DNA of 57,886 bases from Chloroflexota bacterium (GTDB taxonomy: Bacteria > Chloroflexota > UBA6077 > FW602-bin22 > JAMCYS01). The DNA is taken from NCBI GenBank assembly GCA_023473795.1, contig JAMCYS010000117.1:1-57886 (forward strand), in the 5' to 3' direction. The notes beneath the pieces were generated by a model, which had not been told where the DNA came from, searched no databases, and saw nothing but the letters and a program-made list of their open reading frames with translations. Shown here in pieces: positions 29,283 to 57,886 of this stretch (positions are counted from its first letter, which is position 1; each line of letters begins with the position of its first letter). A program made the translations under genes and the position numbers.

Positions 29283-30991
29283 TCACCCCCTTGGCACGAC
29301 GGGCAGGGTCACCCGCGTCGGGCGCGGGCCGTCGTGGAACACGGTCTGCCGGGCCGTGACGAAGGCGCTGTCCTCCCAGTAGTCCCGCCCCGTGTTGTGG
29401 TTGCGGTCGTAGTTCGGGAAATCGCTGGACGAGATGTCCAGACGGAGACGGTGCCCGGCCAGGAACAAGTTGCTGGTCGGCGTCATCTTCATAGTGTACT
29501 CGTAGACTCGACCTGGCGTCAGAAAGGAAGGGGCTTCGTAGGACTCGCGGTAGCGGGCGCGTACGATGCCCCGGCTCACGTCCACGGCGAACCCATCCGG
29601 ATGCACGTCCACCAAGCGCACTGCCCAGTCGGTGTCCGGGGCCGAAGAGGCGGCGTGGAGCTTCAAGACCGGCTGGCCGGTGACCTCCAGGGCCCGCTCC
29701 AGTGGCGGCGTCTGTAGCAGAGCACATCCCGGCGGTCGTCGTGCAGGCGCACGTCGCCCGGGGCGGCGTGGCCGTTGAGGTTGTGCAGGCTCATCAGGGG
29801 GTCGCGCGGGTCGTAGAGGAAGCCGTCGGGCTCCTCCGCCGCCGGCTGCTCGGGGCTCAAGAAGCCGTCGCCCGCCGGGGTATTGGCCCGGCCACCGCTG
29901 TGGCAGTAGAAGTCTGTGGGGATGGCGCGGGCAAGCGGCCACTCGTCCTCGTCGTGCCACCTGTTCTCGCCCATCACGAAGAGGCGCACCGGCGGCTCGT
30001 CCATCACGCCGCCGTCGCCGCCCTTCAGCCAGTAGTCGAACCAGCGCGCGGCGACCGTGGGGAAGGACAGCTCGGCCTCAGGGCCGAAGTCCATCACCCC
30101 CACCTTGCGGAAGAAGGCGAAGCCGTGCGTCCAGGGCCCCACCATCAGCTTCTGGCCACGCCTGGCCCTCGCCGAGCGACCGCTCTTCACCATCTCAGAA
30201 TAGAGGCCGACGGTGCCGTTCAGACGGTCGTACCAGCCGGTGGCGTGGAAGATCGGCGCGTCGATTTCGGGACACTGCTCGGCGAAGCGGAACCAGTCCT
30301 CGTGGTGGTGGGAGAGCCAGTCCTTCTTGAAGCCGGCCAGGGCGCTTTCGGGCAGGTCGGCGAGGGGCGTGAACCAGAGCGACTTGGCCCGCTCAAAGGT
30401 GGCCCAGCGCCTTTTGGCTTCGGCGGCGGCCTGCGGGCCGGGCAGACCCAGGCGCCGCCGCGACTCCGGCACCAGCTCGTTCAGCAGCCATTGCAGCTGG
30501 CGGTCGCGGGCGAAGATGCCCAGCCAGGTGCCCCGCGAATCGGGGATCATGCCACCAGCAAACATCGCCCGCAAGTGCGGCGGCCGCGTCGGCGCCAGCT
30601 TCCATTGGGTCCAGGCCAGGTAAGACACCCCGAAGGTGCCCACCTCGCCGGTCGAGCCCGGCAACCCGGCCGCCCACTCCACCGAGTCGTAGCCGTCGGC
30701 CACGCAGGCGTTGCCGCGCGTGGGCGAGTAGTAGGGGTCGAACTCGCCCTCGGAGGCGAAGCGCCCGCGCACGTCTTGCACCACCACGACGTAGCCGTGG
30801 GCCGCCAGTTCCTCCACCCGGTCCGCCTGGGCCGTGAGCCGCTTGTCGTAGGTGGTCCGGGCCAACAGCACGGGGAAGGGGCCGTCCGCCAGCGGCCGGT
30901 AGACGTCGGCCCGCAGAAGCGTGCCGTCGCGCATCCGCGCCGGCAGGTCGGATGCCTTCGTGACCCGATATAGCAGCTCTATGGTTACCAT
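29283..30991 (-). pseudogene. CocE/NonD family hydrolase, one-base frameshift
   Basis: Serine hydrolase of the X-Pro dipeptidyl-peptidase/cocaine-esterase group, about 569 residues if repaired. N-terminal catalytic domain: MRDGTLLRADVYRPLADGPF, YVVVVQDVRGRFASEGEF, VGTFGVSYLAWTQWKLAP (nucleophile), MVGPWTHGFAFFRKVG (histidine). The C-terminal jelly roll reads LKLHAASSAPDTDWAVRLVD and SSSDFPNYDRNHNTG. At about 29713 one C appears missing: DVLCY should continue QTPPLERALEVTG, but the frame shifts. The 5' 1,104 bases are exactly repeated at 31913-33016. It may be a true pseudogene or an assembly error. Confidence 0.8.
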
Positions 30992-31912
30992 GTGTCCCGA
31001 CTTATCCTCCGCTGGGGCTAGGTTACGTTACTGCTTCGCGACTGGAACCATCTCAAGATGGATGCTCTCGCCCAACCGCCGTCCGTCCGGCAGAGAGTAC
31101 ATTCCCGCGATCAATTCGTACTGTCCATCAGCCGTAGAGGGAGGGACTTTGAGCTCGTACGTCTCTTTGAGAATTTGTCCCACTCGCCAGCGTGAGGTGG
31201 GGTAAAGGCCGGCGTAAGGTTGATGGTCCAGTTGCGCCAGCAAGCGTTGGTCCGCTGCTGCTCCCTCCGGGCGCAACAGTTGCACGAACACCGTGTAGTC
31301 GGCGGCCAGGTTGCGGTTCGCCCGCCAATAGAGCGTGACCCGCAGCGCCTCGCCCGGCCGCACTGACTGCTGGTCCAGGTCATAGCCTAGTAGGGTTACT
31401 TGCCCATCAAGGCTGGCCGCCAACTGGTGTTGTGCCCGGCCGGCGTATACCGAGGCGAGGTTGGGGCTGCCTCTGAACAGCAGTCCGGCAAAACCGACCG
31501 CGAGTCGCGCTGCCTGGTCTCTATCGCCAGCCAGCGGCACCACAATCTCTAACAGCGTCGTACCATCGGCCATGTCGCGATACTGGTTGGACCAAAGGAA
31601 GCCGAAGAGAACCAGATGCTCCCCTTCGGGCTGGCTGGCCGCGAAGCCGCGCAGGCGCAGCGTGGCGTCTCCTACCGGCACGGCGTAGCGGCTCTCGGGC
31701 TCCAGCTGCCAGCCGTTGGCCCGGTAACAGGTCGGCGGGTTGTGGTAGAACATGTTCCAGTCGGCACTCGCCAGCAGCCGCAGCCAGAGCATCTCGCCCC
31801 GTTCGTTCGTGTAGCGGCGTAGCACGTGCTGCTTCGCCCCTAGCGTTAGACTCTCAGTATCGCCGTCCGGTTCGTCCACGCCCCGCCACTCGCCTAGCTG
31901 GCGTGGCAGACT
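29888..31912. repeat. Tandem duplication, unit 1 (2,025 bp)
   Basis: Sequence 29888-31913 recurs at 31913-33938 with offset 2,025; all parts compared by eye, including every overlapping translated frame, are identical. The last C of unit 1 is the first C of unit 2. It covers the 5' two thirds of the CocE gene and the 3' part of the EpsI gene. Confidence 0.95.
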
Positions 31913-33016
31913 CCGGCCACCGCTGTGGCAGTAGAAGTCTGTGGGGATGGCGCGGGCAAGCGGCCACTCGTCCTCGTCGTGCCACCTGTTCTCGCCCATC
32001 ACGAAGAGGCGCACCGGCGGCTCGTCCATCACGCCGCCGTCGCCGCCCTTCAGCCAGTAGTCGAACCAGCGCGCGGCGACCGTGGGGAAGGACAGCTCGG
32101 CCTCAGGGCCGAAGTCCATCACCCCCACCTTGCGGAAGAAGGCGAAGCCGTGCGTCCAGGGCCCCACCATCAGCTTCTGGCCACGCCTGGCCCTCGCCGA
32201 GCGACCGCTCTTCACCATCTCAGAATAGAGGCCGACGGTGCCGTTCAGACGGTCGTACCAGCCGGTGGCGTGGAAGATCGGCGCGTCGATTTCGGGACAC
32301 TGCTCGGCGAAGCGGAACCAGTCCTCGTGGTGGTGGGAGAGCCAGTCCTTCTTGAAGCCGGCCAGGGCGCTTTCGGGCAGGTCGGCGAGGGGCGTGAACC
32401 AGAGCGACTTGGCCCGCTCAAAGGTGGCCCAGCGCCTTTTGGCTTCGGCGGCGGCCTGCGGGCCGGGCAGACCCAGGCGCCGCCGCGACTCCGGCACCAG
32501 CTCGTTCAGCAGCCATTGCAGCTGGCGGTCGCGGGCGAAGATGCCCAGCCAGGTGCCCCGCGAATCGGGGATCATGCCACCAGCAAACATCGCCCGCAAG
32601 TGCGGCGGCCGCGTCGGCGCCAGCTTCCATTGGGTCCAGGCCAGGTAAGACACCCCGAAGGTGCCCACCTCGCCGGTCGAGCCCGGCAACCCGGCCGCCC
32701 ACTCCACCGAGTCGTAGCCGTCGGCCACGCAGGCGTTGCCGCGCGTGGGCGAGTAGTAGGGGTCGAACTCGCCCTCGGAGGCGAAGCGCCCGCGCACGTC
32801 TTGCACCACCACGACGTAGCCGTGGGCCGCCAGTTCCTCCACCCGGTCCGCCTGGGCCGTGAGCCGCTTGTCGTAGGTGGTCCGGGCCAACAGCACGGGG
32901 AAGGGGCCGTCCGCCAGCGGCCGGTAGACGTCGGCCCGCAGAAGCGTGCCGTCGCGCATCCGCGCCGGCAGGTCGGATGCCTTCGTGACCCGATATAGCA
33001 GCTCTATGGTTACCAT
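31028..33016 (-). CDS. In-frame CocE-EpsI chimera created by duplication
   Basis: 662 codons. The first 368 are the CocE/NonD catalytic region, identical to the copy starting at 30991, up to FYCHSGGR. From SLPRQLGEWRG onward, 294 codons are the EpsI sensor region and its beta-sandwich tail, identical to the copy at 33053. The junction keeps frame by chance. The chimera has the hydrolase nucleophile and histidine motifs but lacks the CocE jelly-roll domain, and the EpsI half lacks its membrane anchor. A folded, functional product is doubtful. It could be transcribed from the exosortase operon. Confidence 0.75.
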   Translation of the reverse strand: MVTIELLYRVTKASDLPARMRDGTLLRADVYRPLADGPFPVLLARTTYDKRLTAQADRVEELAAHGYVVVVQDVRGRFASEGEFDPYYSPTRGNACVADGYDSVEWAAGLPGSTGEVGTFGVSYLAWTQWKLAPTRPPHLRAMFAGGMIPDSRGTWLGIFARDRQLQWLLNELVPESRRRLGLPGPQAAAEAKRRWATFERAKSLWFTPLADLPESALAGFKKDWLSHHHEDWFRFAEQCPEIDAPIFHATGWYDRLNGTVGLYSEMVKSGRSARARRGQKLMVGPWTHGFAFFRKVGVMDFGPEAELSFPTVAARWFDYWLKGGDGGVMDEPPVRLFVMGENRWHDEDEWPLARAIPTDFYCHSGGRSLPRQLGEWRGVDEPDGDTESLTLGAKQHVLRRYTNERGEMLWLRLLASADWNMFYHNPPTCYRANGWQLEPESRYAVPVGDATLRLRGFAASQPEGEHLVLFGFLWSNQYRDMADGTTLLEIVVPLAGDRDQAARLAVGFAGLLFRGSPNLASVYAGRAQHQLAASLDGQVTLLGYDLDQQSVRPGEALRVTLYWRANRNLAADYTVFVQLLRPEGAAADQRLLAQLDHQPYAGLYPTSRWRVGQILKETYELKVPPSTADGQYELIAGMYSLPDGRRLGESIHLEMVPVAKQ

Positions 33017-33937
33017 GTGTCCCGACTTATCCTCCGCTGGGGCTAGGTTACGTTACTGCTTCGCGACTGGAACCATCTCAAGATGGATGCTCTCGCCCAA
33101 CCGCCGTCCGTCCGGCAGAGAGTACATTCCCGCGATCAATTCGTACTGTCCATCAGCCGTAGAGGGAGGGACTTTGAGCTCGTACGTCTCTTTGAGAATT
33201 TGTCCCACTCGCCAGCGTGAGGTGGGGTAAAGGCCGGCGTAAGGTTGATGGTCCAGTTGCGCCAGCAAGCGTTGGTCCGCTGCTGCTCCCTCCGGGCGCA
33301 ACAGTTGCACGAACACCGTGTAGTCGGCGGCCAGGTTGCGGTTCGCCCGCCAATAGAGCGTGACCCGCAGCGCCTCGCCCGGCCGCACTGACTGCTGGTC
33401 CAGGTCATAGCCTAGTAGGGTTACTTGCCCATCAAGGCTGGCCGCCAACTGGTGTTGTGCCCGGCCGGCGTATACCGAGGCGAGGTTGGGGCTGCCTCTG
33501 AACAGCAGTCCGGCAAAACCGACCGCGAGTCGCGCTGCCTGGTCTCTATCGCCAGCCAGCGGCACCACAATCTCTAACAGCGTCGTACCATCGGCCATGT
33601 CGCGATACTGGTTGGACCAAAGGAAGCCGAAGAGAACCAGATGCTCCCCTTCGGGCTGGCTGGCCGCGAAGCCGCGCAGGCGCAGCGTGGCGTCTCCTAC
33701 CGGCACGGCGTAGCGGCTCTCGGGCTCCAGCTGCCAGCCGTTGGCCCGGTAACAGGTCGGCGGGTTGTGGTAGAACATGTTCCAGTCGGCACTCGCCAGC
33801 AGCCGCAGCCAGAGCATCTCGCCCCGTTCGTTCGTGTAGCGGCGTAGCACGTGCTGCTTCGCCCCTAGCGTTAGACTCTCAGTATCGCCGTCCGGTTCGT
33901 CCACGCCCCGCCACTCGCCTAGCTGGCGTGGCAGACT
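31913..33937. repeat. Tandem duplication, unit 2 (2,025 bp)
   Basis: Second copy, directly adjoining the first. The left boundary joins EpsI codons to CocE codons (ACT then CCGGCCAC), and the right boundary returns to unique EpsI sequence after GGCAGACTC. Only one base of homology is seen at the breakpoints (GGCCCGG at the left source, ACTCGCC at the right). Confidence 0.95.
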
Positions 33938-34213
33938 CGCCAGGTCGCCGCGGGGCCGCAGGTCGTAGGGGCTGGCGAGCAGCGCTTCGTCGGTCGTGCG
34001 CGTCCACCAATCGCTATCGGCGAGCAGCACGTAGGCTGGATCGGGGCCCCGTGGTGCTCCCGTTTGGGGAACGGAGGGTGCCGACGCCGGCACCGCCGTG
34101 GCGGTCCCGGAAAGCGCCGTCTCCACGGCCCTGTAGGGCCGCGCGTAGGCTCCCAGCAAAGCCAATAGCAGCAGAGCGGCGACTAGACCGAGGCGGCGGG
34201 CGTCAGCTGACAT
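33053..34213 (-). CDS. epsI: EpsI-domain exosortase-associated protein with beta-sandwich tail
   Basis: 386 residues. A signal anchor (LGLVAALLLLALLGAYARPY, about 8-27) is followed by a Ser/Ala/Pro linker and the EpsI domain (about 95-240): SLPRQLGEWRGVDEPDGDTE, VLRRYTNERGEMLWLRLL, MFYHNPPTCYRANGWQ and GEHLVLFGFLWSNQYRDMAD. The cysteine-containing NPPTCYRANGW block is the family mark. Residues about 275-386 form a separate domain, LLGYDLDQQSVRPGEALRVT onward, like the tail of Chloroflexota glycosyltransferases. EpsI proteins partner exosortases in protein sorting or exopolysaccharide export. Overlaps the exosortase 3' end by 31 bases. Confidence 0.88.
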   Translation of the reverse strand: MSADARRLGLVAALLLLALLGAYARPYRAVETALSGTATAVPASAPSVPQTGAPRGPDPAYVLLADSDWWTRTTDEALLASPYDLRPRGDLASLPRQLGEWRGVDEPDGDTESLTLGAKQHVLRRYTNERGEMLWLRLLASADWNMFYHNPPTCYRANGWQLEPESRYAVPVGDATLRLRGFAASQPEGEHLVLFGFLWSNQYRDMADGTTLLEIVVPLAGDRDQAARLAVGFAGLLFRGSPNLASVYAGRAQHQLAASLDGQVTLLGYDLDQQSVRPGEALRVTLYWRANRNLAADYTVFVQLLRPEGAAADQRLLAQLDHQPYAGLYPTSRWRVGQILKETYELKVPPSTADGQYELIAGMYSLPDGRRLGESIHLEMVPVAKQ

Positions 34214-35067
34214 CGCAGTAGTTTGCACACCAATGCCATAAGAACGAGCGTCAGGGTCCAGGAGAGGTAACCTGCCGCCAGGTCGTGATAGGCTATTCCA
34301 GCCTCGTTGCCAAAGTGCTGGGCCACCCAGAGCAGGGAGGCGATGCGCACTTCGTTGGCCAGCACGGCGATCGGCACCACCAGCAACAATAGCGCCAACT
34401 TGGCCCAACTGCTGGCATGTAACAGATAGGCCAACAGCGCCCCCAGCACCAGCAGAGCGATTAGGGAGTTGAGACCGCTACAGGCTAACCCCACGACGAA
34501 GCTGGCGCCAGGGATGCTCACTGCCGCGCCCTGTTGCTGCACGGGCACTCCCACGATGCCGGCCAGCGCCGCGGCCAGCGTGCTGGCCACAACCTGCAGT
34601 TCGATGGCCAGGTCGTTGACAAAGGGCAAGGGTACCATGAAGAGGAGATAGCCGAATGGGAAAGCCAGCAGGCGGGCCCAGGCCCAGCCTCGGAGGTACA
34701 ACGCCGTGGCGCCCAAACAGCCGACGAAAGCCAGGCAGGCGACAAAGTACGCCTGCCGCCAGATACACTCCGCTGCCAGAGCCAGACAGGCCGCCAGCAG
34801 CAAGACTGCCAGCGGAACGGGCTGGGAGGGGAGGCTAACCAGGCGCATCCGCAGTCGCCAGACCAGAAACAGAGAGATCAGGGGTACCAGGAAGCCGTGG
34901 CTGTAGTAGGAATCGCTCAGCCAAGCCATCACCAGCCAAGCGGCGGGCGTAACGAATAGCGCCCCGCCAAGTGCCACCACCAGTAGGACGAGGGTCCCTT
35001 CCAGCCTAACATTCGGTCGCTGCCGTCGCCCCCCTTGGCCAATAGAACTCACACCAATACTCCACAC
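34183..35067 (-). CDS. Exosortase (EpsH family transpeptidase)
   Basis: 294 residues with about eight membrane helices. It should cleave PEP-CTERM proteins and pass them to a surface acceptor. The three catalytic residues are present: Cys196 in LACSGLNSL, Arg241 in ANEVRIA and His261 in AYHDLAAG. The N-terminal family motif SDSYYSHGFLVPLIS lies at about 51-65, and RLLAFPFGYLLFMVPLP at about 132-148. The GTG at 35067 is the longest start; a GTG at 35052 is also possible. Its presumed substrate lies just upstream and EpsI just downstream, so the locus is nearly self-sufficient. Confidence 0.92.
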   Translation of the reverse strand: MWSIGVSSIGQGGRRQRPNVRLEGTLVLLVVALGGALFVTPAAWLVMAWLSDSYYSHGFLVPLISLFLVWRLRMRLVSLPSQPVPLAVLLLAACLALAAECIWRQAYFVACLAFVGCLGATALYLRGWAWARLLAFPFGYLLFMVPLPFVNDLAIELQVVASTLAAALAGIVGVPVQQQGAAVSIPGASFVVGLACSGLNSLIALLVLGALLAYLLHASSWAKLALLLLVVPIAVLANEVRIASLLWVAQHFGNEAGIAYHDLAAGYLSWTLTLVLMALVCKLLRCQLTPAASV

Positions 35068-35158
35068 GGCGAGTCAGCCCACCGGATAACGCGCGGAGTA
35101 TACCATTGAGGTCTTGCCCAGGCAACGAGTAGCCGGCAGCAGGAGACTGAAACGACGA

Positions 35159-35188
35159 AGCGCCGTGCCCCTGGCGGGGCACGGCGCT
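35159..35188 (-). terminator. Terminator hairpin after PEP-CTERM gene
   Basis: AGCGCCGTGCCCC (35159-35171) and GGGGCACGGCGCT (35176-35188) form a perfect 13-base-pair stem with loop TGGC, 30 bases beyond the PEP-CTERM gene stop. On the minus strand a moderately T-rich stretch (TCGTCGTTTC) follows. It separates the substrate gene from the exosortase transcript. Confidence 0.8.
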
Positions 35189-35218
35189 CTTCGCGTCCGT
35201 AGTGGTGGCTGTCGTTAG

Positions 35219-36208
35219 CTAACGCGACCGGCGCAGGCGCAGGTAGCCGCCCAGGCCCAAGAGGCCGGTGGCTAGGAGCATTAGCGAGCCAGGCTCCGGC
35301 ACTGTGGCGGGCGGGGCCGGCGACGGCGTCGGCGTCGGCGTCGGCGATGGTGTCGGCGATGGCGTGGCCGTGGGCACGGCCACAGGGGCCGTGCCGAAAC
35401 TGACGTAGTCGCTGATCGTGCTTGACTGCCCGGCCGTCAAGGCGATGTTCTGCCATTCCAGGCCGGCGCCGTTGTCCTGGTACGCAGCGCTGATCGTGTT
35501 GTGGAAGCCCGAACCTGGTGTGCCAGAGAGGCCGACTTCGCTCCAAATGGTGCCGTAGTAGTTCTCCTCGTACCGGGAGCCTGCGGTGATAGGCTGGAAG
35601 ACGATGTACCAGTTCTGAGCCTGGTTGTAACCGCCAACGCCGCCGGTCGAGGCATTGTAGTAGCCATAGCCATTGTCGCTGCCCTGCAGGTAGAGGTCAG
35701 CCGCGTGGAAGTAGGTGGCGGTGGCGGCGGAGGTGCCCCGGTTGGTCAGAGTCACGTCCTGGCGCAGGTAAGGCTGGCCGTTGACGTAGATGATCCTCTG
35801 CACCAGCCGGATGCCGGTGGTGCCGGCGTCCACGGTATTCGTTACCACCCAGGGGTTCCCCGCCGAGCCATCTCCAGTCGGGCCAGTCTGGCTGACTGGG
35901 ATGAAGTTGGACCAAGGTCCGTAGGACACGTTGCCGACCCAGACGAAGATGCCGTGGTAAACAGTGGTCGTGCTGCCACCTGGGTAGAACTGGCCTACGT
36001 TGTTGTACTGGACCTGGAACGAGCTGTCGTTGTTGATGAAGATCTTCAGCGGGCTGCCAGTGATGGTGACAGTCGTGGCATCGGCGGTGACTTCAGGGGA
36101 CGCCTTCTGGGCCGAGACGGTGAGCACCGAACCGAGGACCAGGCCGAGTGCCAAGAACAGCGCTAGGGCCAGCCGTCCGACGCGCTCAAGATGTCCTAAT
36201 GGTGGCAA
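35219..36208 (-). CDS. PEP-CTERM secreted protein, exosortase substrate
   Basis: About 330 residues. A signal peptide (LALALFLALGLVLGSVLTVSAQ) leads to a beta-rich exported domain (about 40-275) with FINNDSSFQVQYNNVGQF, YHGIFVWVGNVSYGPWSNFI and YFHAADLYLQGSDNGYGY. A Pro/Thr/Ser repeat linker (PTATPSPTPSPTPTPTPSP) is followed by the C-terminal sorting signal VPEPGSLMLLATGLLGLGGY with RLRRSR: PEP box, membrane helix and basic tail. The start is uncertain; TTG 36208 with GCGGGGG upstream is proposed, since the frame stays open further without a good signal. Function of the exported domain is unknown. Confidence 0.85.
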   Translation of the reverse strand: MPPLGHLERVGRLALALFLALGLVLGSVLTVSAQKASPEVTADATTVTITGSPLKIFINNDSSFQVQYNNVGQFYPGGSTTTVYHGIFVWVGNVSYGPWSNFIPVSQTGPTGDGSAGNPWVVTNTVDAGTTGIRLVQRIIYVNGQPYLRQDVTLTNRGTSAATATYFHAADLYLQGSDNGYGYYNASTGGVGGYNQAQNWYIVFQPITAGSRYEENYYGTIWSEVGLSGTPGSGFHNTISAAYQDNGAGLEWQNIALTAGQSSTISDYVSFGTAPVAVPTATPSPTPSPTPTPTPSPAPPATVPEPGSLMLLATGLLGLGGYLRLRRSR

Positions 36209-36644
36209 ACCCCCGCTGGTTAGAACGAGGATGTATTCCTGTTTCCTTGCGAGGATTGGCGCCGCGCTCTGCCCAATCGCCCGCACGCCTTCCAGCAGAG
36301 AATGGGATCTCCCGTTCTCTCGGTTTGCCGCCAGCCAGAGCACCGTCCAGCCGCCGCTTCTACCAGAAGCCAATAGCCGGCCCGGCCAGCAGTTGTCCAA
36401 AGTGGCCCGATTATACTGATCATCGGCAACCCAGTCAATAGTCTAGTAATCGCTAATACTCAAACTTGCCAGGAACAATGGCTAGATCGGACTAGTACTC
36501 CTCGGCCAGCGCCAGGGCAGGCTGGGGGCGTTGGCGGCGCCGGTGTTTGCCTTGACTTTTGCCCAGGCCGCGTCTATGCTGCCCGCAGCAAGGCAAGCCC
36601 GCACTGGCGCGAGCTTGCCGTTTTGGCCACGGGAGTGCAAGCCT
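36209..36644. other. Divergent region before the korDABC operon
   Basis: About 436 bases without a convincing gene. It should hold the promoters of the PEP-CTERM gene (minus) and of the korDABC-sucCD operon (plus). Just before korD, CTTGACTTTTGCCCAGGCC (36550s) offers a possible -35 TTGACT. No clear -10 or operator was identified. Confidence 0.35.
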
Positions 36645-57675: not shown

Positions 57676-57886
57676 ATGTTAGCGCCCCGTCGTCTACTCC
57701 AACTCGTGGTCGCTATCCTTCTCTTGCTGCCGGTTCTAGCAGGCTGCTCGGCCGGTAGTGCTACCGCCGAGCCCTACAAGATCGGCGCCTTGTTTGCCGT
57801 CACCGGCAACAACTCTCCCCTGGGCACGCCCGAGAAGGAGACGGCCCAATTGCTGGAAGAGCAGATCAATGCCAAAGGCGGCATCA
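57676..57886 (+). CDS. LivK-type branched-chain amino acid ABC binding lipoprotein, 5' part
   Basis: The first 70 residues. A lipoprotein signal MLAPRRLLQLVVAILLLLPV leads to lipobox VLAGC, then the beginning of a type-1 periplasmic binding domain, YKIGALFAVTGNNSPLGTPE with EEQINAKGGI, matching the LivK/peripla_BP_6 family start. GGAGGAG lies upstream. The ligand cannot be told from this fragment. Cut by the window end. Confidence 0.88.
   Translation, partial: MLAPRRLLQLVVAILLLLPVLAGCSAGSATAEPYKIGALFAVTGNNSPLGTPEKETAQLLEEQINAKGGI

Follow-up and report, generated by a model that had tools for sequence, protein, structure and literature searches.

The window analyzed here, 57,886 bp long, is the entire contig C29 of a draft genome that totals 4.44 Mb in 170 contigs. 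It encodes an exosortase, an EpsI-like protein, and a CocE-type hydrolase, and contains a twofold tandem repeat across whose join a chimeric CocE-EpsI open reading frame extends. The features are:

29283-29727, minus strand: 3′ portion of cocE in a shifted frame (upstream edge approximate), matching PepX_C and positions 398-550 of TIGR00976
29663-30991, minus strand: 5′ portion of cocE, 442 codons, ending after a one-base frameshift near 29720
29888-31912, no strand assigned: unit 1 of the twofold tandem repeat, 2,025 bp, exactly identical to unit 2
31028-33016, minus strand: chimeric ORF of 662 codons, CocE residues 1-368 plus EpsI residues 158-451, from ORF and profile evidence
31787-32039, no strand assigned: junction fragment, 126 bp either side of 31913, the sole stretch with 127-mers absent from the one-copy sequence (125 k-mers)
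31913-33937, no strand assigned: unit 2 of the tandem repeat, exactly identical to unit 1; the shared C is base 33938
33053-34408, minus strand: epsI-like gene, ORF intact, DUF3485
34183-35067, minus strand: exosortase (EpsH family), by profile match
57760-57886, no strand assigned: final 127 bases of the contig, which contig C4 also has as its final 127 bases in reverse complement, a footprint of a k=127 graph

Self-comparison of the window revealed a 2,026-base exact match between 29888-31913 and 31913-33938 at an offset of 2,025, with unrelated flanks and one base, a C, shared by the copies at the join; the letters thus agree with the original prediction of two identical units meeting in a single shared base. 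No second repeat of at least 30 bp was found within the 57,886-bp window, and the repeat region was not found elsewhere in the 4.44-Mb assembly. Deletion of one unit in silico left the minus-strand order exosortase, epsI, cocE, with no loss.

The fusion that had been predicted, 368 codons of CocE joined in frame to 294 codons of EpsI, is likewise present in the assembled letters. In the CocE part (residues 1-368) the Peptidase_S15 domain is whole and PepX_C is mostly lost, and the EpsI part (residues 369-662, corresponding to EpsI residues 158-451) keeps most of DUF3485 and a C-terminal extension, with loss of the N-terminal hydrophobic segment. Among the matches listed from 200 other genomes of the phylum, each covered one half of the fusion and none covered both. 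The further claim that both parental genes are largely present is accurate for the epsI-like gene, the ORF of which is intact, but overstated for cocE, which is frameshifted by one base near 29720, outside the repeat unit, with CocE profile coverage split between two frames, 2-414 and 398-550. This split, placed only approximately, could reflect a pseudogene or a consensus error. Elsewhere in the neighborhood, the exosortase and a PEP-CTERM protein adjoin the EpsI-like protein (34183-36400); the C-terminal extension of the EpsI-like ORF has relatives, among the matches listed from the same order and other genomes, in long open frames of mostly 750-1,070 codons; and when GTDB genome contigs were scanned for the exosortase, distant relatives only were recovered, at 27-37% identity.

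Thirteen pairs of contig ends in the assembly, one of which involves the end of the window, overlapped by exactly 127 bp, and any other overlap length occurred at most once or twice; the assembly is therefore a short-read de Bruijn graph assembly with k=127, from an assembler that appears to have been SPAdes-like. The 127-mer set of the window equals that of a one-copy version supplemented with the 253-bp junction fragment and also that of a three-copy version, and the k-mer sets of two and three copies are equal even at 2,027 bases. Neither the number of copies nor their identity is thus observable in a k=127 graph. Because both copies were spelled from the same graph edge, their perfect identity is forced and provides no evidence of recency, and the description of the duplication as very recent, which had been drawn from that identity, does not hold. 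Tandem repeats are known to give rise to loops in de Bruijn graphs, and in a test of assemblers SPAdes rebuilt tandem repeats longer than the insert, unitig output included (PMC6052550).

Direct repeats of at least 150 bp were sought in the window and in each of 140 further stretches of the same assembly, together 2.04 of 4.44 Mb, with larger contigs represented by at most their first 20 kb each and contigs C142-C170 outside the survey. Twelve tandem repeats were recovered, every one in exactly two copies, with units spanning 557-2,025 bp (2025, 854, 752, 698, 557, 888, 1647, 990, 1479, 676, 1798, and 910 bp). Eleven of the 12 were letter-perfect, with overlaps of 0-3 bp at the join (0, 0, 0, 0, 1, 1, 1, 1, 1, 2, and 3 bp). 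Random joining predicts overlaps of 0, 1, 2, and 3 bp at frequencies of 0.52, 0.29, 0.12, and 0.04, and the observed values fit this null, with none of the excess that microhomology-driven duplication would be expected, if not strictly required, to produce (mean 0.91 bp, P=0.36). The sibling units shared no common end sequence. The same scan returned no repeats in 1.69 Mb of controls, comprising 52 loci of other genomes (561 kb) and 80 IMG/VR loci (metagenomic viral contigs, 1.13 Mb); under equal rates, the recovery of all 12 in this genome and none in these controls, which derive from other samples and other assemblers rather than from other bins of this metagenome, has P ~7e-4.

Several of the siblings could be related to the genes that they occupy. 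A 1,798-bp twofold repeat at L178:1299-4896 joins a small YggU-like ORF in frame to the 3′ half of rho (names taken from reading the translations rather than from a profile search), forming a second apparent chimera. Exact twofold repeats of 698 bp (L082:10563-11959) and 910 bp (L196:8581-10400) each lie inside a single gene, a lipoprotein-like ORF and a large membrane protein, respectively, and both are out of frame. The 752-bp tandem repeat at L075:14965-16470 has one mismatch and, as read from its printed ends, a join overlap of ~9 bp. Where the repeats hit same-strand gene pairs, two of five were fused in frame (the window and L178), which is near the chance expectation of ~1/3, and in-frame fusion is therefore not a sign of selection.

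One further sibling, an exact 557-bp twofold repeat at L105:1513-2627 on contig C50 (unit 1513-2069), lies wholly inside ftsY and shifts its frame, 557 not being divisible by three. With one copy, ftsY has an open frame of 308 codons that includes the C-terminal part of FtsY, whereas as assembled there is no full FtsY frame. A search of the assembly with the FtsY profile returned the two broken pieces plus a third protein, which scored under the curated cut-off and is probably the related GTPase Ffh. All 14 control genomes contained ftsY. Most bacteria studied require FtsY, although some streptococci can do without it. Since the only ftsY of the assembly is frame-shifted by this repeat, the repeat is implausible as a fixed genotype.

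Given 12 repeats in 2.04 Mb of this genome versus none in 1.69 Mb of controls, the k=127 graph, and the broken ftsY, we consider it highly probable that the repeat at 29888-33938 is a short-read assembly artefact over a chimeric junction. The original prediction had left two options, a recent illegitimate duplication or an assembly artefact; these same observations favor the second and disfavor the first. Under the artefact reading, a few reads would run from the end of the 2,025-bp stretch straight back into its beginning, possibly originating from a self-circularized or end-ligated library fragment; such reads would place a loop on one edge of the k=127 de Bruijn graph, and an assembler taking the loop one extra time would spell the same edge twice. 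That library chimeras supplied the junction reads is suggested by the random overlaps at the joins, by the spread of the repeats over unrelated genes, and by the ftsY case. The true locus is then probably single-copy, in the order exosortase-EpsI-cocE with cocE frameshifted near 29720, and the 662-codon chimera probably does not exist as a real gene. Against the artefact reading, some bacteria, such as streptococci, can dispense with FtsY, and the L075 repeat, with its ~9-bp overlap and mismatch, may be a real duplication; none of the other eleven resembles one. A literature search did not return a paper describing this exact artefact.

Readings in which the junctions exist in cells fared considerably worse. 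It appears improbable that the population carries many sub-2-kb tandem duplications, joined without shared sequence, as a standing source of fusions like CocE-EpsI. It is also unlikely that real tandem duplications, confined to a minority of the cells or strains, were spelled into the consensus by the assembler. Bacterial populations are known to contain spontaneous tandem duplications, the junction k-mers must stem from some reads, and a broken ftsY would be tolerable in a minority state; however, 12 independent duplications within 2 Mb, all of them abundant enough to outlast graph cleaning, would be extraordinary, and the overlaps show no microhomology excess over random joining.

We likewise give little credence to a genuine, fixed, recent tandem duplication that arose by illegitimate recombination and created a CocE-EpsI fusion gene. 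This is what the sequence as assembled depicts, and the 662-codon ORF is open and in frame with the CocE catalytic domain whole. However, the repeat belongs to a set of 12 such repeats recovered from under half of the genome, the k=127 graph makes its identity inevitable, its frame would be kept by chance about one time in three, none of the matches listed from the 200 genomes of the phylum spans the fusion, and ftsY is destroyed by a sibling of this type. That the loop came from a small DNA circle excised at the locus is barely conceivable: the unit as a circle would give the same k-mers, but no integrase, repeat, or replication gene was seen at its ends, the breakpoints fall inside two ordinary genes, and the sibling units lack a common end sequence. 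A mobile-element or circle reading was rejected, the units being without common ends and the window without a tRNA.

In a metagenome bin assembled at k=127, twofold tandem repeats of 0.5-2 kb with perfect identity should not be taken as recent duplications, and such repeats can also make essential genes appear broken. Were the repeats real, homology-free duplication would have a hotspot in this lineage.

Compared with known systems, the two halves of the chimeric ORF match the CocE/NonD hydrolase (TIGR00976) and EpsI/DUF3485 families, but the fused architecture occurs in none of the matches listed from the 200 phylum genomes. The repeat resembles short-junction tandem duplication by illegitimate recombination in bacteria in its direct tandem order, its novel join, and the little sequence shared there; it differs in that too many such repeats occur in one assembly, one of them breaks the only ftsY, and the copy number is not visible in the assembly. 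The other likeness is to a self-cycle loop in a de Bruijn graph that is walked twice (PMC6052550, PMC9104695). Those studies concern real repeats or circles, whereas here the loop would stem from chimeric junction reads; the features in common are exact copies, two turns, identity forced by construction, a unit longer than a typical short-read insert, and k=127 end overlaps in the contigs.
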